Shown one piece after another: positions 85-54,622 of a stretch of DNA of 64,000 nucleotides. The DNA comes from Antedon mediterranea. Taxonomy: Eukaryota; Echinodermata; Crinoidea; Comatulida; Antedonidae. The DNA is taken from positions 2,214,288-2,278,287 of the forward strand of contig NC_092676.1 of assembly GCF_964355755.1 (NCBI RefSeq), in the 5' to 3' direction. The notes beneath the pieces were generated by a model. It saw nothing but the letters and a program-made list of their open reading frames with translations, was not told the origin of the DNA and searched no databases. How positions within the stretch are numbered: the stretch's first letter is position 1; every line of letters starts with the position of its first letter. Made by a program: the position numbers and the translations under genes.

Positions 85-615
85 AAACATTAAATAAATC
101 ATTTAAACTGACTTTAGACAGTTTTTCAACTTGGTACGATAAACGAAACCTTATCAAGAAACTGAAAGTTTTGTATCAAGGTTACATTGCAGAAGCCGAC
201 TTACATAATATCTCTAAAACAATGGACTTGCTGAATCAATTAACGGATTCTGGAGATCTGAGTTTAACAGATCACACCATTCTCTATGATACAATCAAGG
301 CCACCAAACAGTTTGGTCTTGTAGGCCAGCTTAAAAAGCACATTCCATCTTTTCCTGATGTTAGAAAAAGAGTTATTACAAAATTCAGCCATCATCAACA
401 AAAGATTTTGAATTTAGGCGATGTACTGAGACAGGAGGATGTGAACAAAATTGATCGCATGTACAATGATCCACCAAACAATTATCAAGATAGGTGGAGT
501 CTTCTTCTGGATCTACAACACAAACTAATCATTTGTGAAGATAACAAAATGGATGAATTTATTGAGACCTTAAAGGGTCTTGGACTACATAGAGCTGTAA
601 AAACTCTAACTAAAG
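85..615 (+). other. Exon with tandem DED-like domains
   Basis: The exon begins after TTTTCTTAG at 84 and ends before GTAATT. The first repeat shows LKVLYQ, then DLLNQL, then SGDLS and LYDTIKAT; the second shows NLGDVLRQEDV, LLLDLQ and FIETLKGLGL. Spacing and hydrophobic pattern fit two consecutive death-effector folds, but no diagnostic DED charge triad is certain from eye alone; CARD or death domain is the alternative. The Met at 42 lies in the upstream intron and is not the start. Confidence 0.6.
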
Positions 616-3600
616 GTAATTCATGAAACCTTCTTACATTATAAAAAAATTCAATTCCATTCTCATGCTAGATAGTTGATCTAAAATCCTATAGTACTCC
701 AATTTTAAATGTTATCAATATAATTTAAAACAAAAATTTGCTGTTAACAAAGAAGATGAAATTTATAGAACTGGCTTAATAAGTTTTCTTAAACTGCATG
801 AATGATGATGCGCAGGCCCGTAGCCAGGGGGGGTTTTTATGGTTCGGGCGAACCCCCCCTTTACAGCGAACCCCCCTTAACCAACTGCGAACCCCCATCC
901 CCGACATGCTCAATACCTCACCCTCATCTCCAAAAATCCTCCAAATACGTGCCCCACATTACAAAAAGTTGTTTGTAAATTGAAAAATTCGTAAACTTGT
1001 TTGTGAACCTTCTTCTCTGTATGAGCGTCAACTAGTGATACGTGTCTGTAAATTTCTAAAAGCTGCAAATGAATGAATGAATGAAACGAGCTGGCCCACG
1101 AACGATTCGTACAAAGGACACCGCCAGACAACTGCGTACCTATAATTGTTTAGATCACTGGCAATCAGGCAGCATGCATAAAGTATATAGCCTTCCGACG
1201 TACATCAGTATTTATGTGTGACTATGAAGTATAATGTATCATAGAGGATTATAGTGAATATTAATATTTTACACTATAATATCTATGGTATCAAGTACTG
1301 TAGTTCACATTATGGCATCCGATTATTTTTTTCTAGACCACCAGCCGATACGTACTAAAATGTATCAATATCACCTATTTACATATTTATATTCCTCAAC
1401 AAATTACTGTAAATAAATATTATAGATAGAGCTAGCAAATAGCATTTGCCTTCACCCAGTGTGCTTTTTTCGGGGCTGCTCCTAGATATACGTTCGCATT
1501 GAACTTGAACGCAAAACAAAATACGGAGTAAATGATCAAACAATCGGCGGTTCCGCACAGAGCACGCGCATCTAACATACGGCAACAAATAGTTATCGTC
1601 ATTTAAATTATCGACGTGTTTGAGGAGAAGGAAAAAAGTACGATCTTTTTGCTTATTGGTTATATAGCATGCTGCACGAGAGTGTCTTTTCCGGCCATCT
1701 AGGGGTGTCATTTAACAAAATTCGCTTCGCATCAGGCCCCACCCCCAAATATTTAGTGTCCGAACCCCCCTTGACAGATCCTGGCTACGGCCCTGATGCA
1801 CACAGTATTAACAAAATATTGATCAAATGCTAACATGGCAAATGCAAGTAAAGTAAGATTTGTAATACACCATGCAATATTTACAAAGGTAAAGTAGGTA
1901 TTTTAATATAATAATATAATAATAAAAATGTATTTTTTATTTATTACAGATGTTCAAATACCACTTACTCTAAAACGGAAGACAGACTCTGAAGATCAAC
2001 CACCTCAAAAAAAGATCTGTGATGAAATTCCATCACAAAGTACTTCCACTGAAGATAGCCAATCTATTCAAAAAAACCTAGATGAAATATTGCAGTCATT
2101 ACAAAGAACTATTGATGAAATTATGCAATCTTTACCAACTGTCTCTGAAGTTAGGCCATCACTACTAAGAGATATTGATGAACATCTGCAATCTTTATCA
2201 CTTGGCACTCAGACTATTAGTCCATCTGTACTAACTATTGATGAAAGTCTGCAATTATTACACAGAACTATAAATCTCACTGATGACACACCTACACAAA
2301 CATCTATTGACAACAATCTCCAATCATCGCAGATTCCTCTAACTGATAGGCCATCAGAACTAAGAAGTATTGATAGCAAACTGCAATCTTTAACAAATTT
2401 TCTTAAAAACAATCAACGATTTCTGTTAATGTTTACACCAAGTGCTTGCGATGTAATTGTTCAATGTAGCAAATCTGCAAACATGAAAACAACAGATGAG
2501 CAGATATTATTTTCTACACTACGGGAACTGAATTACTTTTTCCAAAAACGTGGGCTTAATTTAACACAAGCAGAACACAGTTCTATAATTTTTAATCTGT
2601 CTGTGCTGGATCCCATTGCTTTGGTAAACCTTTGGGAAATGTACAAAAGTGGAAAGCTTCTGGTAAAATTATCAGAAATATTAGTGACAGGAGAACATCA
2701 GCAGACATTTCAAATGGAATGGATAACAGACATTGACAAAGACAAATACCAAGAAGCACTTTGTATGCTTGAAGAAGAAGGTGAGAAATAAGTTTTGATT
2801 TACGATTCATTCTATCTCAGTTCATCCCCAAAATAGGCATTTTTAAACTCGATAGTTCAATCTAAAGAAAACTAATATTTTACAAGCTGATGGGCAGCAG
2901 GCGTATTTTAAAAAAGGTTGAATTCCCGAGTAAAATCCTTGATGCTCAATAAAAACTATGAAGAGCGTCTTTAATATTTTGTTGAAGTGAAAGATTATGA
3001 ATTTAAAAATGTTGTTAAATAAGAAATTTTAAAACTTTAAGAAAAGTGGAAAATGGATTATTGCTAAATTAAACTTACTTGCTTGGAAATAAAAAAGGGG
3101 GTGTGCACTTTTTAGAGTGATTTATTTACACAAATTATCAACAAAATATAACACTTTATGGAGGCATTGGGACGGTAAATAATATCACTGAATTTAGAAT
3201 ATTTTATTGCAACTTCACTTTTTTTATTAAATATCTTTTGAATTAGATAAGTCTGTTGATTTAACCTCCAAAGAAGATTCAGATGATGAAAATGTTGATT
3301 CAAAAACAGGTGAGCTATTAATTAAAGTTATCTTAAGAGCAAGGAAGAGTGAAATTACACTCACTATTCCCTGATTAAAAGATCACTCTATATGTTTGAA
3401 GTCATAAAAAATGTATATTTTGTTGGAATGTTCACTCCGTTTTGAAAGCTTTATTTAATCTTTACCTTAATTTTAGCACCTCATTGACAATGGTTAACAA
3501 ACACACCAATTCAATACTATTTTAAATCAACTTTACTGCAATGCCTAATATTTTAACAGCAGTGTTCAGATTTGAGTGGTTACATCAATGCATTTTTTGA

Positions 3601-6073
3601 TAATCAATTTATCCACATCATTTTACATTTTACAAGAAATTGTTGATTTTATTTATCCTATAAGATACATTTGGCCATTATATTATAAATTCAATTTGAA
3701 TTGAAAAAAATATAATCTTCTCATCTGTATTCTTTATAAGAAGCAATTAATGAACAAACGGTTAGTCAGTCACAGGTTGTCATACATGGTTGATTTTATT
3801 CAGTTAAAAAATTCAAGTTTGATTTTAGTAATTTTTCAGTGAAATTAATCTGATGTTTATTTATGTTAAAACAATTTATAATAGTTATTCTTTCCTTAAT
3901 AAAACAATTACACATCTTATTGACGACCATTTAAATTTAAAAATATGCATTGCTTATAAAGTACTTATAATTGTTTACAGGTGATTCCAGGATGGCTGCC
4001 AGTAAGCCAAATAAGTTTTTAGAAGACATCAATAAGCATCTTGAGTGTAGCATATGCACTGATCAACTAAAGGATCCAAGAACTTTAAGCTGTCTACACA
4101 CCTTCTGTTTGACATGTCTAGAAAAATGGGTGACAACTAAAGGGACACTAACTTGCCCCACATGCTGCAAAACATATCCAATTCCAGAGGGCGGTCTTCA
4201 CAAGCTTGTACCGAATACATTTATAAAAAACATTTTAGAAACTGGAGAACTTTTGGAGAAAGATGCTAAAAATTGTGTTTGTGGGATGGGTGAAAAAGTA
4301 GAGAGTTACTGTCAGGATTGTAAGGAGTACATATGTTCCATTTGTTGCACCAGTCATAGAGGAATTCCTGCCTTGAGAAGTCACAACTTATATTCCATGA
4401 ATGAGATGAAAGAAATTAGCCAAATGCAGATTGCATTATTAAATTCTTCCCAGTGTCTGCTTCACAATGAACATTTAGAACATTATTGCATAAATTGTGA
4501 AAACCCAATCTGTGAGAGTTGTACAATCTTGGGCCACAGAGATTGTGAAGGAAGACAAAAGCCAATTGCAATTTCAGAAGCTAATAAAATACTTACGAAA
4601 ACTTCAACAGAATTAGAAAACAGCTTAAAGGAGGTTCGTGAGATTGATACAGAACTGGATAAAAATAAATCAAATTCTTTAAAAGATATTGAAGATTATG
4701 TAAAAGAATCCGTGAAGAATGGAGAGGCAATGGAGAAGCAAGTAAAAAAAATATATGAAAAGAAAAAGACAGAGATTGATGAACAAATGGATCAATTAAA
4801 AAAAACAACTTCTGATGTGAACACAAAACTGAATTTACTCCATCAATTATTGAAAAGCAATGAAGTATCACCAATAAAATTAGGTAAAACGGAAGTTTCA
4901 GGACTGAAAGATAGAATTATTGATTTACCAAAAACACACCCAATTGATGATGGAAAAATTCACTTTGCCCAAATCAAACAGCAATTCATTCAACTAAAAC
5001 AGTTAGACACTGAAAATGCAAAACCTGTGACAACAGCTGACTATCTAACATTACAAGCAAAGAAATCTGTGATAGAAAATGAAACCATCGTAGTAAAAAT
5101 AAGAAAACAAAGTAAATGCAAAATAGATGCAAGTCAACTGAATGCGATATGGACAAAATATGAACACAATGAAGTAAAGTTTGAAGAAGAAAATGGAGAA
5201 TTTGTTTTGACAAGAGAATGTACAAGCCCAGGAGCTTGTAGATTAAAAGTAAAAGTTGATGGCAAACACATCATAAATTCACCAATGACAATCACAGTAG
5301 TAAAAGAATTAATAAATTCTATCGACCTAGGCTTGGTTGGTGAAGATGTACTTAAGTATGAAGATGATTGCTTGCTGGTTTCACATTATACAAATAAAAT
5401 ACTTAAGTATAAAACATCAGGAGAACACATTGGTAAAATTAAACTACCAAAAGGTACGCAAGTTTACAGAATGTTCAAAATGAAGAATGGTAACATAGCA
5501 TTCAGTGACAATGTTGGGAAGTGCATTACAATATGCACAATGGAGGGAGAGGTGGTTAGAACATTTGGTCAAGGAAAATTGAAAAATCCAAAAGGTATCC
5601 ACGTCGATGATGAATCAAATGTTGTCTACGTTGCTGATTATAATAATGGTACAGTGGCATTGGACATTGATAGTGGACAGGTCATTAATAGATGGTCACA
5701 GCTTAACATGCGTGTAATGGATCTTACTTTTACAAACCAAAAGCAAATTCTCATATTAACAGATAATCATGGATTACAACTATATCATACTGATGGAGTT
5801 CTAATAACAATTCTTGATGATCGTGATGATGATGATTTTTTTTTTATGCAAAGGCAAAGACTGACAAAGCCAAGAGCAGTAGTAGTTGATAAATTTGATA
5901 ACATTATTGTATCAAATTCTCAAAATGTACAACTCTTTGATAAAGATGGTAAATTCATCAAAGAGATTGGTAAAAGAATACAGGCAGAAGGATTATGCAT
6001 CATTTCACATGAGCCACGGAAAATTGCTGTAATACACAAGCCTACAAAATCATTACAAATACTTAATTACTAA
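85..6073 (+). CDS. DED-like / TRIM (RING, B-box, coiled coil, filamin, NHL) fusion protein, 5' partial
   Basis: Exons are 85-615, 1950-2780, 3247-3309 and 3981-6073. All four acceptors and three donors are phase 1 and the joined frame is open for 1,172 residues; earlier exons lie outside the window. The first exon has two DED-like helical repeats (about residues 20-90 and 100-175, with the hydrophobic pattern of death-effector domains). The second exon has a basic patch (KRK, QKK), degenerate ID-x-x-LQSL repeats and a C-terminal helical module ending LEEEG. The last exon, counted from the internal Met at 3992, has a C3HC4 RING (Cys19 to Cys58, CSIC, CLHTFC, CPTC), two B-boxes (about 97-200), a coiled coil (about 205-300), a filamin repeat (about 350-445) and NHL-type beta-propeller strands to the end. 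TRIM-NHL proteins are usually E3 ubiquitin ligases or RNA regulators, and DEDs recruit death or immune signalling partners; a combined role is inference. The Met at 3992 has a good context (AGGATGG), so a shorter TRIM-only product from an internal promoter is possible. Confidence 0.8.
813..1795. mobile_element. Nonautonomous hAT-like element in intron of the DED-TRIM gene
   Basis: The left end reads CAGGCCCGTAGCCAGG and the right end is its near inverse, CCTGGCTACGGCCCTG, so these are terminal inverted repeats of about 16 bp. Runs of GAACCCCCC follow each end in inverted orientation. CAGGGGCGTAGCCAG-type ends are common in animal hAT elements. No transposase ORF lies between, and an 8-bp target duplication is not clear. 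It accounts for most of the 1.3-kb intron between the first and second visible exons. Confidence 0.6.
2781..3980 (+). other. Introns of the DED-TRIM gene with a 63-bp micro-exon
   Basis: Two introns flank exon 3247-3309, which encodes an acidic Ser/Asp-rich linker of 21 residues. The micro-exon is bounded by GAATTAG and by GTGAGC, and its phase (1 in, 1 out) keeps the frame. The intron sequence itself is AT-rich and shows nothing else recognisable. Confidence 0.6.
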
Positions 6074-9985: not shown

Positions 9986-12900
9986 CTATAATTGTCCATG
10001 TGCAAATTTCCTTTCTTTTTCTGTTGTTGAAAAAGTTGAGCAGCTACTGTGGTAAAGTGCTTTTCCTTTTAAAACCTGTGAATTTGAATCTGTGATCTGA
10101 AAATAAAAGAAAATCAATATTTTAATGTTTTGAACGTAGTAGTAGTATTGAAAGCACTAACTGTAAAAATTAAGAATAAATTAATTTTCTTTTTTTTTAA
10201 TTGCTACCTTAACAATCTGTTATTTTTTAATATATTGTATTTTTGTATTGTACTGTATATAAAGAGCTTTTTATTATATGTTATACTTTTTTATATGTTA
10301 CTGATTACAAAATAAAGAATAAATGAATCAATGAAATGAAATAAATGTCTTACAACACAGTAACTAGGAGTGAAGAACATTCTTGACATTGACCCTTGAT
10401 ATTGACCTTTGACATGGACCTATGACATTGAACTATCAAATAAAATAAAATGAAGAATTACTTGAACAGCAATGAAGTCACCAACACTTATTGTTTGCAT
10501 ATGAGCAGAAGTTTCGCTTTCTGGAATCGTTTTATCCGATATGATAACTTTTGTGTTTGCGTCAATACGTCCTGCAAAATCCTCTTGTGATCTCTTACTT
10601 TTCTGTTAATAACAAATAACAAAAGAAATTATTCAAAAATAATTTCAATTAATAATTAAGTTAGCAAAGCACAACTTCCAACTTGATTTTGATCGAAAAA
10701 TTCAACATGATAAACTTTAACCCTTCAATTAACACCAATTCCTGTCTTTCTACATATTCTTCATCTAATAATTTAACATGATAAACTTTACCCCTTCAAT
10801 TAGCACCAATTCCTGTCTTTCTACATATTCTTCATCTAATAATTTAACATGATAAAACTTTACCCCTTCAATTAACACCAATTCTTGTCTTTCTACATAT
10901 TCTTCATCTAATAATTTAACATGATAAAACTTTACCCCTTCAATTAACACCAATTCTTGTCTTCCTACATATTTTTCATTGACTTTCCTCATTGATTCTC
11001 TTGTGACTTTAATTATTTCATTTAATCTTCTTTTTTTAATCTCCTCAGGAACGTCGTCCTTCATTCGATGGTAGGCATGTGTTTTCTAAAAAGTACATTA
11101 AAAATTAAATTCTACATATTCTTCATCTAATAATTTAACATGATAAAACTTTACCCCTTCAATTAACACCAATTCTTGTCTTCCTACATATTTTTCATTG
11201 ACTTTCCTCATTGATTCTCTTGTGACTTTAATTATTTATCTTACAGAAAGCCACAGAAAATGTAAAAAACTTTATTAACACATCCAAAAAGAAGTAAAAT
11301 GTAACTAATACACATGTGTGAGTGCAACCAATAGAGCTAAATGCTGACTCTAAAGACCAATTTACGGTAACGGTAAGCGGGAAAACGGCCTAGCTTGTCC
11401 CATGTATCTATCCTGAGCAGAAACCATCTGTTGCTCAATGTTGTGTGTAAATGGTCATAAGGAACAACATAGATTCTACATTTTTATTACAGTTATCACT
11501 CGTCTGTGTAAATTGGTCTTAAAACCATGACTAAATTATCACATTGTATTAGCCTGACAAACAGTAACCCTGTAAATCTGGCCGTACAGCCATTTGGATA
11601 TATTAATAAGTTTGATCCAAAAACTTGACTGCTGAAAATCATCATACTATTATCATTTTCTTTCAGCGTACCTCGGAATCTGAAAATATTATAATATCCA
11701 ATTTGTAGAATGTTATTTCTTTTATTTCCCCTTTGTATCAAGTGGAATAGGAATGAGGTTAAGTGATTGAGTAGATTAGGTTGAGGGGGTAATTCTGTTG
11801 AGTGTATTACCTGTCGCATACTATAAGCAAAGAGAAATGCATAGTTGTAATTGACTTGTTGAAGCAGTGACAACGTGTCTTGATGTTCAGCTTCTGTTTC
11901 ACCACAGAATCCTGTGATAAAGTCACTCGTCAACGAAACATTAGGCAACACCTCCCTCACATGTTCTACAAGTTCAAGATAGGCTTCACGTGTATACCTA
12001 CAATTAATAGCAAAATATTACAACTTTAAAAGTTTAGGTTGTTGTTGAGTTTAAGTATAGACTTTATTCATGCTATAACTCAAGAATGAAAGTGTTGGCA
12101 AAGACGTCTGTCAAAAAGTGGTCAGGTTGAAACCTTACCAACCGTACTGGTGGGTGCCTAAATAAAAATATTGCACACAAAGATGATTATTTACCCTCTT
12201 CTCATTCTATGAAGTACATCTGAGTTACCGCTCTGAGCTGGTAGATGTAGGTGATTGCAAATATTGGTTCGATCCTTTATTACATCAAGTACCTGCAAGA
12301 GGACAAATATTTATCAAAACTATTTATATACATTATAAGCCTATTTCAAATAATGACTCTATTCTTTCTTTTATTTGGAAATCGAATTTCTTTATTTGGA
12401 AATAGAACTTCTTTATTTTGAAATCAAATTTCTTTATGTGGAAATAGAAATTCTTTATTTGGAAATAGAATTTCTTTATTTGGAAATAAAACCTCTTTAT
12501 TTGGAAATAGAACTTCTTTATTTGGAAATAGAACTTCTTTATTTGGAAATAAAATTTCTTTATTTGGAAATAGAATTTCTGTATTTGGAAAAAAGAATTT
12601 ATTTATTTGGAAATAGAATTCCTTTATTTAGAAATAGATCTCCTAAACTCCTTGGTCAGAAGTGACAACCATTATGGTCAAAATAATTTTTCGAGATATC
12701 ATCAATTTCTTTTGACAATTTATCTGCCAATTCCATTTTTAAAGGATGTAATAAAAGAGTAAGAGCAATTTTTAATTGACACAAATGTTAATCTGATCCG
12801 TTTACCTCATCTGGGAAATCTTTAGGATGCGGAGAAGTAAATCTTATCCTCATTTCTGGATCAACAAGTGAGACTTTATCAAGAAGATCTGCAAAGCGTA

Positions 12901-15900
12901 AACCACCAACTTTTGGCTTATAAATCGAACTGAAACCTTTCGCAATGGAATCAACTGCACTTTGTTTTGAATAATATACATCTTCAGATACATCACGATA
13001 GCTGTTAACATTCTGTCCAAGTAAGGTTACCTCTTTCACGCCCTGTAATAGAGAAATTATGGATAATTTATAGTCCTTGTTAGAAAAATTTGTTAAAGTA
13101 TGTGAAACATATTGGCCTAATTTTTATAAAAATGATATTGTTACAATCTAACCTTAAAACTACTGACCTATTGACAGAGTTTTTACAAACCAAAGACATA
13201 TCCTCATGTTAACAGATTAAAATTCACCAATAATGATGAAAAACTAATTAAAGTTTACGATAAAGATGGAAAGCTGAGTTACCCACAAGCAGTAGTAGAA
13301 AGATGAAATCATTATTTGATAAAGATGGTAAATTCATAAAAGTGATTGGTGAAACAAAATGGGCAAAAGGTTGTTGTTTTCATTTCACATCAGCCACGGA
13401 AAATGTCTGTAATAAATCAGTATGATAAAACACTGAAGATATTCAATTACTAAAATTGCAATAATCTATGAACTGTGAAAATCAATCACTCTCTAACAAT
13501 AACACTTTTCAAAACGGTTTCGAGCACCCTCTATAAAATCCTTACAGCTACAGTGTACTATATTACAGGAATATGGGCAAAAGGATTACGCCTCATTTCA
13601 AATCAGCCAACAATTGCTGTAATAAATCCGTCTACCACCAAAGCATTACAAATAATTAATTACTAAAACTATTTGATAATCTATCACCAAACTACACCAG
13701 AGTTACCTCTTTTATGCCCTGTAATATAAAAAACTATGATGCAAGTTGCTACCAATAAACTTTGGTAAAGAAACTAAGGTGCATTAATTAACCTGGATCA
13801 TTGTTAGCTAATTTGCATAAAAGTTCTGTAAGGTAGTTTACTTATTTTAAATAACCTTAAAGGTATGTTAGTCAATAAAATAATGTTTGATGATAATCAT
13901 CACCCTTCTTTCAATATAGACTTATTAGGACACAAGGTTAAGGTCAATAACAGTCCAGTCTGTTAATAGTCACATGGCAAAATATATTAGTTTATGTTAC
14001 TAAATAGCATAAGCATTATCCAATACAGGAACTTGTGTTTTAAGGTCAAACCATTGTTTGAAACAGGATATAAACAAGAAAAAACAAGGATTGTTTATAT
14101 ATATATAAATATATTATATTGCAACATCGAATATACAGCAACAAATGTGTGTTAACAATGTTTAAAAGTTTTTAGATTAAACGCGACTATTGGTGTAAAT
14201 TACAACCTAATCAATCTAGACTTTCTTGTAAAGGTAAGCTTTTTTTTTAATGACAAATATATAAAAGTATGAATAATAACACTCATATAGAATTCTTGAG
14301 ATGGTTAAAGCGTGACGGTTTAAGTCATATGTCTAATAAAAGTCCTCAATGATCCAGATATTGACAAGATTTGCTGCCTAAAGTGCCATTTTATTGTGAA
14401 CAGGTTTTTCAAGATGGCTGTTAGTAAGGTGAATACATTTATAGAAGACATCAACGATCATCTTGAGTGTGGAATATGCAAGAATCGACTTAACGATCCC
14501 AAAACTTTAACTTGTCTCCACACCTTCTGTTTGACATGTCTAGAAAAATGCATGACAACAAACGGGACACTCACTTGTTCAACATGCTCAAAAACTTACC
14601 CAATTCCAGAGGGTGGGATTACAAAGCTTTCCACAAACACATTTCTAAAAAACATACTTGAAACTGTTGAACACTTTTTGGAAAAAAATGAAAAGAAATG
14701 TGTTTGTGAAAAGGGTGAACAAGTAGAAAGCTACTGTCAGGATTGTAAGGAGTACATATGTTCCATTTGTTGTGCCAGTCATAAAGGAATTCCAGCCTTG
14801 AGAAGTCACAAGCTATATTCAATGAATAAGATGAAAGAAATGAGCTCAATACAGATTGCATCATTACATCCTCCACAGTGCGAGGTTCATAAAAAACCTT
14901 TGGAATTTTACTGCAAGGATTGTGAAAACCCAATCTGTGTGAATTGTACAATCCTGGGTCACAGAGATTGTGAAGGTAGACAAAAGCCAATAGCAATTCC
15001 AGAAGCATTTAAAATATTTAAGGAAACTACAACAAAATTAGAAAAGGATGCAGATACCTATACAACAGAATTAGAAAAGAGCTTAATAGAGGTTTACGAG
15101 ATTGACATAGGACTGTACAAAAATAAGAAAAATTGTTTGCAAGATATTGAAGATTATGTAGAAGAAACCATTACGGCAATCGGAAAGAAAGGAGAGACAC
15201 TGAAGAACCAAGTGAAAACAATTTATGAAGAGAAAAAGACAGAGATTGGTGAACAAATAACTGAATTTAAAAAAACAATATCTGATACGAAAACAAAACT
15301 GAATTTACTTCATCAAATATTAAAAGGCAATGAAGTATCAGCAATTGCATCGGGTAAAATGATAGTTAGAGCACTGACAGACAGAATGAATGATTTACCA
15401 AAAACACAGCAAATCGATGACGGACAAACTGACTTTTATCAAATCAAACAGCAAGTTGTTCAACTACAAAAGTTCAACCCTGAAAATGTAACAAAAGTGA
15501 CAACAGCTGACCATTTAACTTTACAAGGAAATGAATCTGTGACAGAAAATGAAACCATTGTAATAAAAGTAAGAAAACTAAAGGAATGTGAAATAGATGC
15601 AACTCAACTGAATGCAACATGGTCACAGCAAACTAAGTTTCAAGAACAAAATGAAGAATATGTATTGACAAGAAAATGTACAAGCCCAGGAGATTGTAGA
15701 TTAGATGTGACAGTTGATGGCAAACACATCATAAATTCACCAATGACAATCACAGTACAAAAAGAATTAATCAATTCTATCAAATTGAACTATGGTGGCC
15801 AAAATGTAGATGAAGATGATTGCTTGTTGATTTCAGATTGGACAAATCAAATATGTTAGTACAAGTATAATTTATTAGAAGTATATATTGGTACAATTAC

Positions 15901-18900
15901 ACTACTATAAAAGTAAAAGTTTACAGAATGTTCAAAATGAATAAAAGTTCTTGTTAAAGTGTCTGATAATGTTGAAGTTGGAAAGCTGAAACCCCCATGT
16001 TCAGTAATATTTGATAAAGATGATAACATCATTGTATCAAGTCAATATAATGTATAAAAATGTTAACTTTTCACAAAAAGTTGCTGCAATAAATCAGTAT
16101 AAAATATTAGAAACATAGACAGACATATTTAAGAACTGTACAATACGTAATAATGTTTTACCTGTTCAGAAAGTACTCTAATCTCTTCTAAAATCGAGGT
16201 CATAGGTCGACTTCTTTCTCTTCCTCTTGTGAAAGGCACTATACAGTAGCTGCACATGTTATCACAACCTCTCATTATAGAACTACAATTAAGGACAATA
16301 AAAACAATATATTTCTTTGCCTATTGTGTTTATATATACACATAGATAAATGATAATCACCAGTAGTAAAATAATTCTCAAGTAGGAAGATGTTTTGCTT
16401 AACTCTGCAAGTAAAATGTAGATCATTGGTTGAAGGTGTATTGTCCCCCAAAAACATGAAGAATGAAGATTAATAATAAAAAAAAACCTTGAATAGCATT
16501 TTTAACAAAGTTAATCACTTCCGTAGAAAAAAATGTTTTAACTCATAAAAAGACAAAACAGTTAAATTCAACTGAAAGCCTATTGACTTCCAGTTTTTGG
16601 CTTTAAATCTTTTTTTTTTGCTTTCTTTAAAGATGTATTGTCACCCTAAAAAAATAATTCTTAAACATGTTTTGTTGAATGTTCCATAATAATTATCCAC
16701 TTTGACCAAAAATAGGATTAGCTAAAAAAAACTGTAATGCAAAAAATAGTCAAATTGGCTGCGAGCCACTGGGTTTTTGTCGTTTAATAAGTGAAAACAT
16801 TATTTTTTTTCTTTTTAACTTTATTAAAACTAAAAAATAAGTCTGATTTAATTAATCTTCATTTTTCATGTTTTTGGAGGACAATACATCCTGAAAAGGT
16901 TTTTCAGGTAATTAATTTGTTTCCATCCAATTTTTGGTATTAAAAGTTAAAAAAAACATTTGCAAAAATTAAATTTTTTCAAGGGGAAACTATATCATTA
17001 AGAGAAAAAATTTGTATTCAGATGGAACTTGACCAACTATCTTCCTATTATTATCCTCTCTCCCACAACCCTCAAGAATAAAAAGAGAAGATCAAATAAA
17101 ATATGTTTTAATTGTTATCATATGCATCCTTTCCCTGGTTGCTAAACCCAGAGTTTAAACAAAAAAACAAATAAAAGATTGTTTGTTTAAGAGTATAAAA
17201 TAAAATCCAAATTATGTATTTTTGCGCTATGTATTCCTTCTTTTCTCATTGTTTTCTAAATCGCAAGACTGAGTTTACATACACAAATGCAGATGGTGAG
17301 TTTTGGTTGAGGCGTACAGGCATCACGTCTGCATACGTCTCATCAATAGATAACATAGTGTTAATGGCAGCTTGCCGAGATTCTGAAACATCCAGTAAAC
17401 GTGGTAGATCTCTATATGCATCAGGACCGGCAATTACATCAATTATTTTACTTTTATCAAGAATCTTCTTCTTCAGCCTCTCTGCCATACATCCTGTAAA
17501 AATAAAAGTTAGCAAATCAAGTTGATCAACCTGGAGAATGTTCATAAAGCTCTGTCTACACTATAAAACTGCCTAAATATGGTAGTGATATGCCCAAATA
17601 TGGTAGTGATATGCCCAAATATGATAGTGATATGTCCAAATATGGTAGTGGTATGACATCATCATGTCAATAGATGGGCACATCACATTTTTTTGTCACA
17701 TAAAGTTTGATAGTGTAGACAGAGCTTAACACATGGGTACCAAAACACAAACCAGATATTGTAACAAATGATAATTTAATTTAAATTACACTTATGGTGT
17801 AGTAAAGTTTTAAACAAAAGTTTAAAATTTAAAGAAAGAGTATAGAAAGAATTTCCATATTTTTAAAGATTTTTTACATTTTAGTTTTGGAATATTCTGT
17901 ACAGCAATTAAATTTTATATAAACAAACTGGAAAATCATTATATCTACTCACCGAGCAAACCTATCTTGAGTGGTACTTGTTTTCCTCTCCTTGATTCCT
18001 TAAGAGAATGAAAGTGTTGTAATCGATTCCAGATTCTTGTTTCTGCATTCTCTCTTATTGCACAGGTCATTAATAAAATTACATCAGCCTAAAAAGAGAA
18101 AAACAATGTTTTAAAGCCCCATAATTGATTTATTAAGAAGGGAAGCGAGAGGGTTCATCTTGTTTTCCTGCCGACGTAATGTTACAGTGTACCTCGGTTC
18201 AACTTCATCAATTACAGATTTCCACGATTTTTAACATTAATTTTTACCCCCTTTCCTGTAAAATCGTTAAATCGTGTAAATTCAACGCAACTTGCCACAA
18301 CGGTATATCGACAGGCAAACAGTCTTTAGACTTGCCCCAAGTAGTTATTGTCTTTTTTGTGTTAGTGGGCAAGTGCAAAAATATTTTACTAATATTAAGT
18401 CAAAACTCTCTCTAGAACCTAGACTGCAACACCACAGGTTGAATATAGAAACCTACTATCTATACTGTTTACTGTTAAAAACCAATTATAATTATTATGT
18501 CGCTCTTTGTAAGACCCAAGTTATGTTTTCATACCTCTTTTACATCATCAACTTTTTTATAACTGTTGGTTTTTAGTATCGACCAGACAATCTCCATGTC
18601 ATTAACATTCATCTGACAACCATACGTCTCAAAGTAGACTAAACAGAAAATAAACACAAATTGTTGTTAGGTTCATCAACAGAGATGATGCGATATTAAA
18701 ACCACATTTATTCACATAATATTTAATAAACACTCAAAAGAATTATTTTGACAATTGTGTTTACCAATTAATAATAATTGCGTCAATGACATTGCGATCA
18801 TAGTAACGTGCAAGGAGTTTAATCGTGGCATTAACAATGAAGTAAACTCTTGGTAACCATACTAGACCTACAACTGCAGTCATTATATACATATAACAAA

Positions 18901-40457: not shown

Positions 40458-43400
40458 TTATGATGTAGTTTCAGCTTGTTCCGTCACACCTGCTACGGAT
40501 ACTTGTGTCGTATTTTCTCTGTTTTCCTGAATCGCCGGCATGGCGTCACGGATCGATGTCTTCGTATTTGCTCTAATGCGAGACTGCGTAAACACATTCA
40601 TCTCCTCATCATTTACAAAGTACAACGCATATATCTTAACTACAAACAAACATATTAATGCAATTGTTCCATTAATAACCAATCCATATCCTTTGTATAT
40701 AGCCTTATATTGAGGTTCATTCGTTGTAAAGTATGGTGGGCTAAACGCGACAATTATCACCAGTGTGCTAAAGCTACAGAAATTGATAAACCGTGTTTCG
40801 TTGTAGTTGTCTGGTAATTTGCGTGTCATAAACGCATAGACGCAGGATATTAAGACTAATATAATATTGTATGCTAAGGATCCGATGACTTCAATGTCTA
40901 CAGTTCCTTCAGTGTTATCCCACGCTGAACAGAGCATGATCACGGTACCTTCGTTTTTGTTTGGCATTATGTACTTAACTGTCGGTGGTACAATTAGCAA
41001 CCAAATAAGCATCCATAATATCTGAAAAAGGTGATGATTTGTTATTTTTTAATATAAGGTTTAACATAAAGAAATTATTGAGTGTTAGTTAATTAGCAAT
41101 CTTTCGTTTTCACGATGTGCCATAACGCACCTGTCGAGTCGAAAAATCATTCCATGGAAGATCATACACATAATTTAATGAGCATGCGCAGAATGACTGT
41201 TTGCCTCAATAGCTGCGTATTATCTGAAGTTGGTTAGGTGACCAGATTACAACAAAGAAGAGTTATGTCGGTACAATTCACACTAGGGAAGAGCGACATT
41301 ACATTGTTACTTACTATAAACGAAATGTCATCGTCTACCCGCCTTCCCTCTCTCATCTTAACTTAAACAACATTGATATAGGCCTATATATAACATTTAA
41401 GAAGAGACATACCTGAAAAATAGCCACCGAGAACGCAATGAGTAATTGAGACTGGGAACTGATGAACTTCGGTCTCCGTGCGCTCTTCGCACTAGTTTTA
41501 AATATACGATATACTCGAACAGTTTTTGTCGTTACTGAAGCATATATCAACGCCACTGAAATCGGTGATCCTATTCGTCGAAAGACGCATACACTTGGAC
41601 CTGGACGAATACCGTGGAATAAGGCACAGACGAACCCACAGAATATGCCACAGAAAATGATGTAGCTAAGTTCTCTACTGGATGCCTTGATCAACGGTGT
41701 GTTTCTGTTTTTGATGTATGCAACCAGTATGACGAAAGTCACAGTGATTCCAGCACTTGACAACATGATGAGAATTATAGCCCACGGATGTTCTTTAGTT
41801 ACAAACGTTCCATCGATAACTTCACATCTTGTTCTGTTTTCATTTGGAAAATAAAAAGGCGGTTCATTTGTATCGCATGGTTCGCAACGTGTACCGCGGT
41901 CGCTATCAGTGACTATCGACGAAGATAGGCATTTGACGCACGTCCAACAACACGGCGTTTCTTCCGAGATTATGGTCGCATAACCCGTCTCACACGGATC
42001 ACTACAAGAGGATTTCGGTTTAACGGTTGAATTATCGTTTGTTATGTTCCATTTCACTTCACTATCATTTTTAAAATTACTTTCTTCACTCCAAGATCCA
42101 ACATCCACAAATGTATACACGTCGTTTATCTTTTGTAAATTCTTTATTTTATACCTTGGTTGGGAGTCTCCATTTTCGTCAAATGTTACCTGTCCGTTTG
42201 AAGGACTGTCAAATCTGGTTTTCAAAAGAAAGGGCATGAGAGCTTTGCCGTCATCCGGGGTGAATTTTGAGCATCTTTCGCTATTTATTTGACACTGTTG
42301 GTCCTTCATATCTTGTAGGGCGTGAATAAAAGATAACACGCTGTCCATGACTAGACTATCGTGCGCCGGTGAATCGGTGTCATTTGCTATCGGAGCAAGA
42401 GTAAGATGGTCGCAAGGAGGGAGACCAATTATAGGTTCTCTACTCGAACAATTCCTGTACCTCTCCCAAAATTCAATAGCCCAAGGATTATCTGTATCTG
42501 AAGGGGTGATCGAGTAAAAATATTCGTCAAAAGTTGGAATAGAATTGGAGTATGGCTGGATTGTGAGAGCACCTGAAATGATAAAGAAAACTTACGATTA
42601 CAGTAAAGCTTGGTTCCCACAAGAGACGCAACGCAAGGACGTAGACGCAACGGAAGCGAATTGACCAATGACAAGCGACTGTGCGAATAATCCATCGCTT
42701 CGAATTGGTCAAATTACTTACGCTTACGTCCCTGCGTCTCTGGTGGGAACCAAGCATTAGATTCTGCTAATTACCAATTGGGCAGTCGATCTTTTGAATG
42801 GTCGGTTGGTAAACTAACCATGACACTCGATTACTTACCTAACGCTGCGTCTTCGTTTCCTTTGACTGCATTTAAACCATAGTTTCCCCATCCATCGCTA
42901 CCAATCCATATGAACCGATTTTTTATACCCAACCTGCTCACAGCTTCGAAGATTCCACTGGCAACCTCCAGTTGTACGTACAATATGACAACAGTAGCTT
43001 TCTTTGCCATATCCAAATCGTTCACAACCTCATTGTAATACTCGTCAGGGGCGTGTATAGAAACGGATTTAGTCGTAGCTAAGCATATACCCAAGTCTTT
43101 AATTCTGAATTTAAACGCTTTTAACGCATTCTCTCCATATGAATCATCGGAATTCACGAATGAAACATACGTCCAATTATAGAACACTAATATATCCACT
43201 ATTGACTGTATCTGGTATTTATCAGGAGGAACGGTCCTTAAGAAATATTTGTATTTCAGTTTATTACTTAGTTCGTCACTTGTTGATAGGTAACTTATCT
43301 GTGGGATACCATACACACCGAACAGGACGGCTGCTTGCACGGATGAGCTGCTTCTTTGTGCGCCGACGACTCCGGTTACGCGCTTAGTAGACTCAGTACA

Positions 43401-43784
43401 CGCACCCTCCGTACTGTTTGCGCAGTCGCATTTACAATGGCATTCATTTGTCCTTTGTTTGGGAATTAAGTTTAACGAACATTTGAGCGTCTCGGAAGGA
43501 TACGAACACGTATCGTATATTTCATAACCTATAGTCATATTAGGAAAAATATTATCTTCATTTATTTTATTGATTGTATATACCATTGCTTCTACACGCT
43601 TCAATGAATTTAACTCCCGAATTTGTCCACAAGTACCGGTCGTTTCATCGTACAGGTGTAATGGAAACAAGCCGCCTAGTATTATATCTCCTTGCTTGGT
43701 ATAGTTTTTAGCCTGCAAAGATTCTCCAAATTGTAGACTACAAACGATAATAGAGATCAGTATCATTTCTATCGATAACTCCAT
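40458..43784 (-). CDS. Metabotropic glutamate receptor (class C GPCR), 3 exons, complete
   Basis: Exons on the minus strand: 43784-42839, 42572-41413 and 41021-40458, joined in phases 1 and 0 to 889 residues. Residues 1-25 are a signal peptide. The Venus-flytrap domain (about 30-500) keeps glutamate-contact positions known from mGluR1: Arg63 in RVEAM, Ser147 in SSSSV, Thr168 in STSDELS, Tyr216 in SYGE and Asp297 in GSDGW. The Cys-rich domain (about 505-560) has CSDPCETG and CCWTCVKC. Seven membrane segments (about 578-830) follow, with FCG..CGFVCALFHG, SVTTKTVRVYRIF and RLPDNYNETRFINF-like loop sequence (here KLPDNYNETRFINF). The C-tail is short (about 45 residues), without an obvious Homer motif. 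Family binding of glutamate is well supported; subgroup is not decided. Intron 1 contains a MITE B copy. Confidence 0.95.
42604..42759. mobile_element. Palindromic MITE family B in mGluR intron 1
   Basis: Left TAAAGCTTGGTTCCCAC and right GTGGGAACCAAGCATTA, with inner GCGAATTGACCAATGACAAG and its inverse. It fills over half of the 266-bp intron. Confidence 0.85.
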
Positions 43785-44905
43785 TGTGATAGGCCTACAC
43801 TAGGCTTATTAAGAGCTTGAACGTGGCACTTGTTCTAAAATAGAAACAAATAATACTTTAGGCATAATTTTGTAATGAACAAAATAAAAATGCTTTCGTG
43901 GTAAACTTTCTAGCACAAATAGCTATAAACAGCATGTTGTTTTAGTCTTACTGGTTAGAATATTCTTATCAAATGGAATTCTGTTCAGTTGTTAAAGTTC
44001 TCAATGTTGGGGTATTGGAAGGGGCTCCTCCTTATTTACCAAAACAATCTAATATTTTTTGTTACAATCCTTTGGTTCAATAACCGAGTTTGACTTTCAA
44101 AGGTTTTTACTGGTAAAGCTTACTTTCAAACGGACATTATAGTCTACAGTTGCTGCATGGTGACATTTTTATAAACTATATTTTGACTGCAGAAATAATG
44201 GTTAGTTGGATCAATTTGTTAGAACACCTAAATGGAAGTTTCCATCAAGGTTCTTTCATCTGAGTAAGAAACGGTTGATTTGGTTGTCTGTAATTAGGCT
44301 ATTTAGTGATCAAACCAAAGCGAAGATTGCCTTATTCAATGAAACATAAGGTTAGTTTCTATTCCAATAATATCAAACCTGAAAGCCTAGCAAAACCTAT
44401 ATGCAGTTGGTCATTTTTTATGGATGGGATAAGACACAATTTAGTGAATTCTAGCATCATGTTTACCACCGCGATACTAGAAACACCTGCGCTAGGTTTG
44501 CTGTAATAATGTCGATTCTATGTAATTACTAAACATACTCACCTCTTACATCAAGAAGATTGAAAGCAGACTGAGATGACAAAACACTTTTTTCTCCAGC
44601 TAAAATCTATCATCAGGTTTAATCGTACAACACAGTACTAGAATTGCACAAGGCGGTTTATAGTTTATTTGATTCCATATTACTAATAAACACAAACATA
44701 CTCACCACTTATACCACATACCCACAGTTTACTACTATCGTGTACCAACAGTTGGTAAAGTTATCTTTAAATAAATATACTCAGTGTTTTTATTTAGCAG
44801 TGATCGTCACAATGTGGACTTTACTCTCAACAATAGAGAGACTCTGAGAATTACTTAAAATTAACACCTCAACATTATACTTGAAAACGTGTTTTTGTAA
44901 ATTTA
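43785..44905. other. Upstream region of mGluR
   Basis: No coding exon is seen. The 5' untranslated exon(s) and promoter of the receptor are expected here, but no TATA or Inr can be singled out. Confidence 0.4.
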
Positions 44906-50200: not shown

Positions 50201-53200
50201 CTCCGATCATTATGAAGCGGATATTAGTATCTGTAGAGGAAAAAAAATGTGGTTATATGTATAATTCATTCCAAATAGTTTACTTCCCGTCATTGTATAG
50301 GATATAACTTTTAATTTGTGGTTTACCAAATGAATATAAACATATCACCTACAATCACAAGTAAGGTTGTAATACTAAGCAAAAGAAAGTTTTCTTTGTG
50401 TTTTGTTTTAATTGGTTGTGAAATCAATACCTGTCAATATTACTTGCAGTAAAACCACATAAAAAGGTATAATGTAGGAAAAATTAAAATAGATTTGTTG
50501 ATAAAACGAAAAAATGTCAAGAATGCAAATTGTCAGCATAACGGATATATCAGAAAATGTTAACAATGTATTGTTATAAAAAACAATTTTTTTTTTTAAG
50601 ATGAACTTCTTATATTGTAAATATGCAAGCATGTAAAGCTCTGTCTACACTATCAAACTTTATGTGGCAAAAAAACTGTGACATTTATATAGTCCATATA
50701 TGGACACGATGATGTCATATTACTACTATATTTGGGCACATCACACTTTCTTTTGTCAAACTAGTTTGATAGTGTAGACAGGATTTTAAAGGGATTCTCT
50801 TGTCCACAGCATTTTTACCATCACTTTCACTGCTGGTACAAATATAGTTTAAAAAGGGCATTTCAAGTTATAAGGGTATTATATCTATTTAATGATAATA
50901 ATAACATATGTTCATATGTACCTTTCATTTTAAGCACTTGGCATACTTCATTCTCAAACACATATCCAAATTAATTTAATTTAGGCTACATAGAAATATG
51001 ATATTATACATTGGTCTTAGCACGCTGGAATCCCCTGTTAGGTCAAACTTAATGTTAGTGGCGTGGAAAATAAGTAGGCTTCTTCGCCAACAGGTGGTCT
51101 CTAACTCAGTCCATGCTCAGTGTGATCGTCTTCTATTGCACTTGTTTGTCAATGTTTAGTATGAAAATAGTTTTTTTAATATATAAAGATAAAAACTCTG
51201 TAAATAATATGTTTCACAGTGTAGTTTGGTTGATTTTAATATTTATATACTAATTGTTTATATTTATATTTTCATTTACGGTAGGGATATTGTCAAAATT
51301 ATTATACTGCAGTAAACAGTACAGTTACTGCAATGTACAAATTTAATTTATTTCAATGTAGAACTTATGAGTCACTGCAATGTATGATTACACAATAAAG
51401 GTTGCTAAATAACTGCATAAACAGGTAAAGAGAAAACAAAATGTAGTTACTGCAATAGATTAATTTTTACATAGCCCTTATGTAGTGAATTTATTTTAGT
51501 TGGTACCGAGCTTTCTCAGGCGTATATAACTCCACGCGACGTACACAGCTGTCACTGAATGATAACTCATACAAAAAGTATATTTTACTCAACTAGAACT
51601 TTTATTCCTTGTAATTCGTTTAATACATCTTTCTACCACTACCAGTCAAGCCTTATTTTCTTTATCATCTTTCCGTTTATCTACTCTGATCTTATTCTCT
51701 CTTCTCCCTTAATATCTATTACATTCCACTTTTATACTGGATATGCAAATTTTAGGCTTCAGAGGAGGATAACATTTTCCCTCCAAAATTTACACGATTT
51801 TGATTGGCTAATATAAGGCGGACCTGGTCTAAAGCATCCTTCTCTAAACACAGACAATCACAACATCAATAATATGACAAAGATTATCAAACAAATTGCA
51901 GTTAAATTGAGCTTAGATTGAATTTTCCATATTCTAATTGTGCATAATTTATTAGAAACACAAGACAGCTTTACTTCACCGTTCTTTGAGGGCGATATTG
52001 TCCTGGACTTGGACAGTCAATTTCTTTTGGCGAAACAGAATCTTGAAATGGACAGTCGGCGGTCAAGACGAGCAATACGAAGACCAAAGGCTAGGCTATG
52101 GCCACGTGGCGTCATTCCATATGAAATTGACAATGGATTTGGTGAGTATATTTCTATCCGACATTCTACACATCTTTATGAACAGAAGGTACAGTGCCTT
52201 ATTTTATTATTTACTGTATATTTATCTAAAAACTTTTTTTTTTTGGTACTTTCAGATGAAAAGACAATTGACATCATAAAATTGTCAATGAGACAATGGG
52301 AACGAAACACTTGCATTGATTTTAAAAAGAAGCGAAAGTCGGACAAAGATTATTTGCAGTTTAGGTATCAGCCTGGGTAAGCAGCAACTCAAAAGTAGTA
52401 AAAATGGTATTTTTGGTTTGCACCATTTATATTGTCTTAAGCATTGTCCACACTATCAAACAAGTGTGATGTGCCCAAATATGGTAGTGATATGACATCA
52501 TCGTGTCCATATATGGGCACATCACATTTTTTGTCACATAAGGTTTGATAGTGTTGACAGAGCTTAAGAACTTGGTGTTTTATGATACATTCTTGTATAT
52601 TTGTAGTTGTTGGTCATACATTGGCCGGCAAGGAGGAAAGCAGATAGTATCATTTGGACCTGGTTGTGCCATACCTGGAACTATCATACATGAACTGGGA
52701 CATGCAATAGGATTCTGGCATGAACAGGTAGGTGTATACACTCTTACACTCTGTCTACACTATCAAACTTTATGTGAAAAACAAATGAGATGTGACCATA
52801 TATGGACATGACATCATATCACTATCATATTTGGGCACATCACACTAGTTTGATAGTGTAGACAGAGCTTTATGAATATATAATTTAGCAATGGTTGAAT
52901 ACTTTGGTTAGGTTTCAGTCTGTGTGTACTGTGTGATCACCAAACAGAGATAAAGCAGAGAACTCAAGAGGAACCCAAGAAAAGTGCTGCTATTGGCCGA
53001 TTTTTTTAGATAAATCCTAAATTAAATTAAACATTTTGCATATTTAACCTTTGAACTATCATCGGAATCATAGAAGTCAATAGAAACACAGCCAGTCCCA
53101 ATGTCACAAATCAAGGCCTACTGAGTTCAGTTGTGTTTAGTACCATTTGAAATTGGAACTACAATCTTCAAAATGTAAACATTTCAGGGTTTTTGGATGA

Positions 53201-54622
53201 ATATAAATTCATACTCAATCAGTTAATAAAATGTTTTGTACTTAACAGGGACGTAGAGACAGAGACGATTACATTACAGTACTGGATAAAAACATAGCTC
53301 CTGGCTTAGAAAAGAATTTTGGAAAAATCGATAAAGGTAACATCACCTCAATGGGTTTTGCCTATGATTATGAAAGTATCATGCATTACGGGGAAAAATA
53401 CTTTACGAAAAATGGTAGGCCGACCATCAAGGTGAAGAAGGAGTACAAAGATCGTAAATTTGAAATAGGACAGAGAGACCACATAAGTGATTTGGACAAG
53501 GCGCAGATAAGAGCCATATACAAGTGTAATAAGACTCCAGTTAAAGGTATGTGGGTTTGTCTAGCACTAGACTGGCAAAGAAAGAAACATCAGCTATTCT
53601 TTCAAATAAGTTTACAAAACTATTGTAAAAAGGTTAAATCAATAAACAAAAGATTAAAAAAAGCACTTAAATTTTATAAATCTATGGAGGTTTGTCTGTT
53701 TGTTCGCTATACAAGTTTTGTCTACTGCATGCATCCATACACAAGGGGTATAAAATGACCACCACTGGAAGGTTTTAAAGAACATTTGAACTGGAACCAA
53801 GGTGGGGTATAAGAGTAAAGCCTGTTTTCCTGTCGACGTAATTCGACGCTATCGTTAACAATAATCGGCGATCTTCTACGTAAACATTGAAATGTTAACG
53901 ATTTACAGGAAAAGGTACTCGCTATTGTTACTATTTCAACTTGATCGTTTTCAAACGATCGTCGTTGAACTGTAACGATCAACGACGATAGCGTCGAATA
54001 ACGTCGACAGGAAAACAGGCTTTAGGTAGGGGGGGAAACAATATAATATGTGGGATAATGATTGTGGTATCAAAAAGACCAGAATTGTACTTGGAAGGGT
54101 TTAAACTACATTTTAACCCTCCATCAGGGGCAGAATCCCCTAAATTTCACAAATTGTAATGCAAAACATTGGAAATATAATGCAAATTAAGTTTACCACT
54201 TCATTTTCACTTATAGGCCCCCACCCTCTCTATTTCAAAATCCTGGATCTGCCACTGTCCATTGAGTGGAAGGGGAGCACCTACTGAGGGGTAGGTATCT
54301 TTGCTAGTAATGTATAAAGATACCAATTAATTCTTGTAATTTATTTTCAGGTGCGTGTTTTAAAAGCAAAGCTGGAGACGGCCGTGAATACCGAGGAAAA
54401 TTAGATTACACGGAAAAAGGGATAACTTGTCAGAAATGGTCATCGAACTGGCCGCACCGGCATAACTATTATTCCGAAGTCAAAAAGGTACAAGACAAGA
54501 AGGGCTTCGGCGATCACAATTACTGTCGAAATCCCGGTGGAAGGAGAGAAAGATTATGGTGTTACACGACATTGAAGGACAAAACCTGGGACTATTGTGA
54601 CATCAAGATTTGCAACAAATAG
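47246..54622 (+). CDS. Secreted astacin metalloprotease with C-terminal kringle, 8 exons
   Basis: Exons: 47246-47378, 47967-48014, 48475-48555, 51956-52141, 52256-52376, 52607-52727, 53249-53546 and 54351-54622, giving 419 residues. Residues 1-30 are a signal peptide ([16 protein letters not shown]). The propeptide carries FFEGD (97-101), whose Asp blocks the zinc in astacin zymogens, and the furin-type site RRSRR (122-126); the mature chain would begin AIRR. The catalytic domain has [13 protein letters not shown] (218-230, Glu219 catalytic, three zinc His) and the Met-turn SIMHYG with Met275 and Tyr277. A kringle (332-417) with six cysteines, LWCYT and WDYCD ends the protein. Kringles bind proteins or lysine side chains; here it may target the protease to matrix, which is inference. 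EGF and CUB domains of tolloid-type members are absent. The small exons 2 and 3 rest on phase and propeptide logic and are less certain than exons 4-8. Confidence 0.9.
48556..51955 (+). other. Long intron 3 of the astacin gene
   Basis: 3.4 kb of AT-rich sequence holding one MITE A (50634-50787). I found no other exon with phase-1 ends. Confidence 0.45.
50634..50787. mobile_element. Palindromic MITE family A, copy 3
   Basis: Left end TAAAGCTCTGTCTACACTA, right end TTTGATAGTGTAGACAGGAT. The interior has TATATGGACACGATGATGTC and GGGCACATCACAC. Confidence 0.9.
52437..52566. mobile_element. Palindromic MITE family A, copy 4 (astacin intron 5)
   Basis: Left CTTAAGCATTGTCCACACTA and right TAGTGTTGACAGAGCTTAAG, with AAATATGGTAGTGATATGAC inside. 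It fills most of the 230-bp intron and ends 40 bp before the next exon. Confidence 0.9.
52745..52870. mobile_element. Palindromic MITE family A, copy 5 (astacin intron 6)
   Basis: Left ACTCTGTCTACACTATCAAA and right TTTGATAGTGTAGACAGAGC. It starts 18 bp after the exon 6 donor, so two adjacent introns of this gene each carry a copy. Confidence 0.9.
53817..54024. mobile_element. Palindromic MITE family C (astacin intron 7)
   Basis: Left AAAGCCTGTTTTCCTGTCGA and right TCGACAGGAAAACAGGCTTT are perfect inverses. Inner arms CGACGCTATCGTT and ACGATAGCGTCG continue the palindrome. Confidence 0.9.
54096..54330. repeat. Interspersed repeat fragment ending GGATCTGCCACTG
   Basis: GGGTTTAAACTACATTTTAA, TGTAATGCAAAACATTGGAA and CCTGGATCTGCCACTG resemble the inverse of CAGTGGTGGATCTAGG at 54808. 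CAGTGGCGGATCC-like ends are typical of hAT MITEs. Related text occurs near 21000-21150 and 36640. Confidence 0.45.

Follow-up and report, generated by a model that had tools for sequence, protein, structure and literature searches.

The locus and the predicted gene

The window analysed here is a 64-kb stretch (C7:2214288-2278287) of a genome of 354 Mb in 18 contigs, and all coordinates refer to this window unless a contig is named. The window begins within an intron of the gene under discussion. Four exons of this gene lie on the plus strand: E1 (85-615), which encodes a tandem death effector domain (DED); E2 (1950-2780), with a basic start, an LQSL-rich linker and a TRADD-N-like domain; E3 (3247-3309), a short acidic exon, DKSVDLTSKEDSDDENVDSKT; and E4 (3981-6073), a TRIM-NHL exon that includes the stop codon and is preceded by an acceptor AG at 3979-3980. 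E1, E2 and E3 are each phase 1-1. A sequence-only reading of the window had proposed four exons with matching phase-1 boundaries, and this holds: the junctions 615/1950, 2780/3247 and 3309/3981 are all phase 1, AG or GT is present at all seven of the expected splice dinucleotides, and E1 to E4 are all open. In mononucleotide shuffles, E1 was open in 0 of 2000 and E2 in 0 of 2000.

That reading contained neither the TRADD-N-like end of E2 nor the start exon, which was located by comparing the DNA upstream of the various copies of the gene. The start exon, ATGGCTACGTCAG, reads MATS and precedes a GT at C7:2213181, that is, at window coordinate -1106, ~1.1 kb outside the window. The pattern ATGG[CT]NNNNTCAGGT, which was composed after seeing examples, occurs upstream of E1 in 12 of the 16 copies scanned, some of which had fewer than 700 bases of upstream DNA; it was missed in copies A, L007, L013 and L018. 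Once the start exon is added, the exons join into a frame of 3,531 bases that has a single stop, at its end, and encodes 1,176 amino acids. The splicing of E1 to E4 is inferred from the genomic DNA, and the predicted protein order is tandem DED, linker, TRADD-N, TRIM-NHL.

Intron 1 holds a transposon-like element (813-1795, no strand assigned) with 16-base inverted ends that are 94% complementary; it is not a coding part of the gene. Elsewhere in the window, exons read by eye like a CDK5RAP1/MiaB-type methylthiotransferase (11496-12017, minus strand), a class C, metabotropic glutamate-like receptor (40458-43799, minus strand) and an astacin-type metalloprotease (51922-53758). A broken TRIM-NHL copy, with four stops in the match, lies at 14414-15973.

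Domains encoded by the four exons

E1 is a tandem DED, with DED1 at about 153-335, as given by the Pfam stretch, and DED2 at about 384-614, as given by the fold match. At a limit of E 5, the Pfam DED model matched 13 of 13 aligned family members, with a best value of 4.6e-08; the window copy itself gave E 0.00031 and 21.4 bits, below the 35.9-bit cut-off. In an AlphaFold model built from 13 sequences (mean pLDDT 69.7), the first 40 residues are poor and the model is good from residue 101 on. Since DED1 is poorly modelled and DED2 well modelled, DED1 rests on sequence and DED2 on fold. A Foldseek search with this model returned 117 rows at E <= 10, with no match at E <= 0.001; the best 10 rows were all death-effector-domain structures (probability 0.66-0.99), from caspase-8, cFLIP, FADD assemblies and vFLIP. 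In VIA-align 2, rows 1-20 were all DEDs, at Z 8.1 to 6.0 and mostly over about 100-176 of the model, although helical bundles may reach such Z values through their common arrangement. Taken together, the Pfam, Foldseek and VIA-align 2 results rule out an identity of E1 other than a DED, and they confirm the two DED-like folds that had been suspected in the first exon. Searches of PDB sequences with E1, E2 and their profiles returned no DED or TRADD chain. The canonical DED motif is RxDL; it was not apparent when the E1 sequences were read by eye. Between the window copy and 10 copies outside its cluster, the dN/dS of E1 is 0.26-0.58.

In E2, the basic start and the LQSL-rich linker, which the sequence-only reading had correctly picked out as an LQSL-repeat linker, run from 1950 to about 2533, and the TRADD-N-like domain from about 2534 to 2780. 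The identification of this end as a TRADD-N domain of the DEDD/TRADD type is supported, but more weakly than the DED and TRIM assignments. PF20694 (TRADD-N) matched 4 of 14 members, with a best value of 0.00049 at a limit of E 5, and at that limit there was no match in the window copy of E2. A genome search with PF20694 found two places only, C8:15157657 and C11:12810065, neither of them in the DED/TRADD-N cassette family; one is a gene that reads by eye as DEDD-like, the other an exon that reads by eye as NCOA6-like. Therefore, the curated model does not reach the cassette family. When profiles were compared with hhalign, the 14-member E2 profile aligned to the TRADD-N of L021, a DEDD/DEDD2-like gene of the same genome, over 71 columns with E 0.00052 and a probability of 31%. 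A 19-sequence profile, consisting of the 14 members and five more distant relatives from the same genome, scored 31.8 against the DEDD-like TRADD-N (probability 67.5%), and the best of 200 shuffles scored 17.9. An NCOA6-type TRADD-N was considered for the E2 end and set aside, as it was unmatched, the NCOA6-like segment scoring 8.7 vs 31.8 for the DEDD-like one. Likewise, DUF7006, the best Pfam match of E2 (1.7e-05, 25.4 bits, cut-off 27), lies in the linker and was taken as a low-complexity match. The AlphaFold model of the E2 end has a mean pLDDT of 69.2 and a pTM of 0.44, and none of the 30 PDB rows returned for it was useful; it is given no weight here. DEDD2-clade families have a conserved Ser (the “uS” motif); in the likely column of this motif, which was picked by eye, 7 of 14 members, including the window copy, have Ser and 7 of 14 have Cys.

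The E3 peptide SVDLTSKEDSDDE (3247-3309) has what we take to be a resemblance to a SUMO-interacting motif. If this is true, the presence of a RING in the same protein would point towards a ligase of the SUMO-targeted type.

E4 is, by its domain sequence, a TRIM-NHL exon. An 11-base leader (3981-3991) separates the acceptor from the TRIM ATG at 3992-3994, an internal or alternative start codon. Within the exon, Pfam places a C3HC4 RING at 4046-4165 and a B-box region at 4289-4546, in which the best stretch is 4289-4384 and a second box, at about 4454-4546, comes from a weak related match. A filamin repeat (5087-5290) and the best NHL stretch (5582-5656) follow. The sequence-only reading had described a complete TRIM-NHL protein; its RING and B-box stand above the cut-off, its NHL stretch just above (20.1 vs 20) and its filamin repeat below (17.4 vs 26.9).

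A constant cassette with changing downstream partners

E1 has at least 150 matches in its own genome (150 of 318 candidates were scored), and E2 has 37. We examined 17 loci with E1 or E2: the window copy (W), two sister units of the same C7 cluster (A and B), and L005-L018. The downstream effectors given here are adjacencies in the same orientation, and the downstream Pfam scan covered ten open reading frames picked by eye. Read from the genomic DNA, the cassette is reused before different effectors at other loci, with TRADD-N at the junction between the constant and the variable part. A TRIM lies downstream in 3 of the 17 loci (W, A and B), and a PARP or PARP12-like sequence in another 3 of the 17: L006 (Pfam PARP 2.3e-18), L011 (CCCH just above the cut-off, PARP12 winged helix below it) and L012, which was assigned by near identity to L011. 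Leucine-rich repeats (LRRs) occur downstream within the fetched DNA in L008 and L015 and, according to genome coordinates, at about 8-12 kb in L007, L013 and L014. Other downstream domains are Death in L009, ZU5 in L010 and an AAA_11 helicase-type domain in L017; in L005, L016 and L018 no downstream effector was recognised by eye. Among the 15 copies tested, the E1 acceptor is phase 1 in all but B and the E1 donor in all but L008 (14 of 15 each).

Two observations concern individual partners. The PARP exon of L006 (4370-5830 of that locus) has a long acidic repeat tail, and a MuDR DNA-binding model matches the whole protein at 3.8e-07 with no single stretch passing. A large LRR exon family is found on C4, C8 and C11, and several of its exons lie within a few kb of DED exons; it is perhaps a common partner.

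Among the TRIM matches listed, the association with E1 is confined to one cluster. An E1 exon stands 2.0-3.9 kb upstream (start-to-start) in 3 of 73 TRIM rows, namely those of the three C7 units W, A and B; TRIM rows outside this cluster are at least 49.6 kb from any of 187 DED places. The sister units, A (C7:2185888-2189621; L001, L002) and B (C7:2199718-2204565; L003), have DED, TRADD-N and a TRIM exon without a RING. The TRIM part of A is interrupted by an in-frame stop, and in B the E1 start and the E2 donor are out of phase, so both sister fusions are damaged.

Are the death folds of the window copy truly joined to its TRIM-NHL part? The sequence-only reading had the death folds in phase with the TRIM-NHL, which is borne out at the level of sequence by the phase-1 junctions and the open joined frame. 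We favour a single transcript that would span all exons and join DED/TRADD-N to TRIM-NHL, with a probability of roughly 0.6. Of 16 copies, 13 have a phase-1 donor at the end of E2 (it is phase 0 in B, and none was found in L011 and L012), so the cassette normally runs on into a further exon. Between E3 and 12 kb, no other plus-strand open reading frame of at least 60 amino acids reads by eye as a known domain. In A and B, the RING-less TRIM exon stands directly behind E2/E3, at other acceptors that read phase 1 by eye.

A real though rather unlikely alternative is that two genes lie next to each other on the same strand. The first would be a DED/TRADD-N gene closed after E2 either by a short terminal exon or through retention of the intron (EEEGEK-stop), and the second a stand-alone TRIM-NHL gene that starts at 3992 and has a non-coding 5′ exon. 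The TRIM part has three stand-alone neighbours, S1-S3, and the E4 acceptor and an 11-base leader of equal length also precede the ATG of S1 and S2. Because of this identity, the matching phase at the E4 acceptor is weak evidence for a fusion, being expected in 1 of 3 cases by chance. The leader of S1 contains a stop in frame. In S3, 11 bases follow a CACAAG, and a broken copy, P, has a 10-base leader that is out of frame. The TRIM part of W groups with that of S1 (85/91 DNA, 84/90 protein), and a TRIM clade of W, A and B is mildly rejected (p 0.0399, 0.0402); in the DED/TRADD-N trees, the clade of W, A and B is neither supported nor rejected (p 0.104, 0.0844, 0.169). Two separate genes would also be compatible with candidate mini-exons in intron 3 (e.g., from 3477) and with AATAAA/ATTAAA words before 3981. 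A blastn search for the promoter or 5′ exon of the stand-alone TRIMs in W matched the acceptor-leader-ATG region only (45 bases from S1, 49 from S2), and the upstream DNA of S3 gave no match to the window copy. On the other hand, a two-gene arrangement is opposed by E3, which keeps the phase and for which B shows, by eye, a counterpart whose splice sites are similar, by the phase-1 E2 donor in most copies, and by A and B themselves, where TRIM exons without the RING start stand behind the cassette. As proof of fusion, the loss of the RING in A and B is weakened by RING-less TRIM-NHL units on C4 that seemingly have their own ATG (C4:26771951-26779730 and C4:1857374-1859233).

It is very improbable that the locus is a decaying relic of a cluster that once made fused proteins, in which W is the least damaged copy and no longer expressed: the lesions in A and B, two further broken TRIM copies in the C7 cluster and a TRIM dN/dS of 0.56-0.72 within the cluster would fit, but W shows no damage in its 3,531 coding bases or in any of its seven splice dinucleotides.

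Relation to known systems and proposed working

Kaur et al. (2021, eLife, PMC8195603) describe lineage-specific DED + TRADD-N families that have expanded in marine animals and carry variable effectors, and among the fused partners in their account are TRIM ligase domains, PARP, UPA-ZU5, LRR and Mov10. Since that paper already covers families with effectors of this sort, among them TRIM, the window gene is a new member of a kind that is already known, and the earlier suggestion of an undescribed system is not supported. Like the DEDD2-clade families of that paper, as far as its account goes, the window gene as predicted has a constant DED followed by TRADD-N, a variable effector and an expansion in the animal's genome. 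Unlike them, it has its DED in duplicate, a linker rich in LQSL, and an NHL-type TRIM; the term NHL has 0 occurrences in the main text of PMC8195603. In the literature surveyed by titles and the openings of abstracts, with subscription papers mostly outside its scope, no paper beyond PMC8195603 appeared to join these domains.

TRIM-NHL proteins of the TRIM2/TRIM3 kind, listed as class VII, share with E4 the order RING, B-box, filamin, NHL; in the window, however, exons for DED and TRADD-N stand before the TRIM part in matching phase. The DEDD-like gene L021 (C8:15155900-15158400; named by eye) resembles the cassette in having a DED, a lysine-rich linker and the TRADD-N to which the E2 profile aligns, but differs in that one DED is seen, with no effector in the fetched 2.5 kb. 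The tandem layout of the DEDs is that of caspase-8 and cFLIP, which are also among the best structural matches to E1; in contrast to these, no caspase domain is seen in the window gene, and its first DED is poorly modelled here.

On balance, we lean towards the window gene being a member of an expanded innate-immunity or cell-death family, with TRIM-NHL as the variable C-terminal effector. The gene probably couples a module for cell-death signalling to an enzyme that attaches ubiquitin. A scheme can be outlined from general background on DED polymers and the activation of TRIM RINGs, and from the model of Kaur et al. (PMC8195603), which in their account proposes that TRADD-N is a switch between its flanking domains. 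After an upstream death or infection signal, the DEDs would bind to or polymerise with other DED proteins, and TRADD-N would act as a hinge between the DEDs and the effector. The TRIM coiled coil would dimerise, DED-driven clustering would join the RINGs and so turn on ubiquitin transfer, and the NHL propeller would pick the target. A short TRIM from the ATG at 3992 could be made additionally.

How might the cassette gain its effectors? We offer, as a tentative and rather improbable proposal, that it captures a splice acceptor just before the start of a downstream gene. The cassette would come to lie upstream of an intact gene whose ATG follows a splice acceptor by just a few bases. The constant phase-1 donor would then read into the acceptor already present, so that the two are fused in frame and no splice site has to arise anew. 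The downstream gene would keep its own start, and a single locus could then yield the effector in DED-clustered as well as in free form. In L011, the ATG of the PARP12-like exon behind the cassette follows a phase-1 acceptor at a distance of two bases. The same AG|CA-ATG occurs in two further copies of the exon, L030 and L031, yet roughly 4 kb of DNA upstream of them contains no match to E1 or E2, and the listed E1 matches include none beyond it. The 94% match between L030 and L011 starts about 80 bases ahead of the ATG and continues downstream; L031 stands further apart and, by eye, has a weaker pyrimidine tract at the acceptor. The window TRIM (leader of 11 bases) and the L011 PARP12-like exon (leader of 2) thus share acceptor position and leader length with copies that have no cassette seen directly upstream, and in both cases the leader fits a phase-1 donor, which suggests acceptor capture; these are two cases noticed after the fact and do not prove a rule. 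This route differs from retrotransposition, the source of fusions proposed in the account of Kaur et al. (PMC8195603).

If spliced as predicted, the window gene would encode a ubiquitin ligase whose RING might be turned on when the death folds assemble, and TRIM-NHL would be one of several effectors carried by a shared cassette. Capture of an effector from next door, if true, could show how such immune proteins arise. With two effectors each present in copies linked to the cassette and in copies that appear free of it, side by side, the origin of this architectural diversity would be directly testable in one animal.
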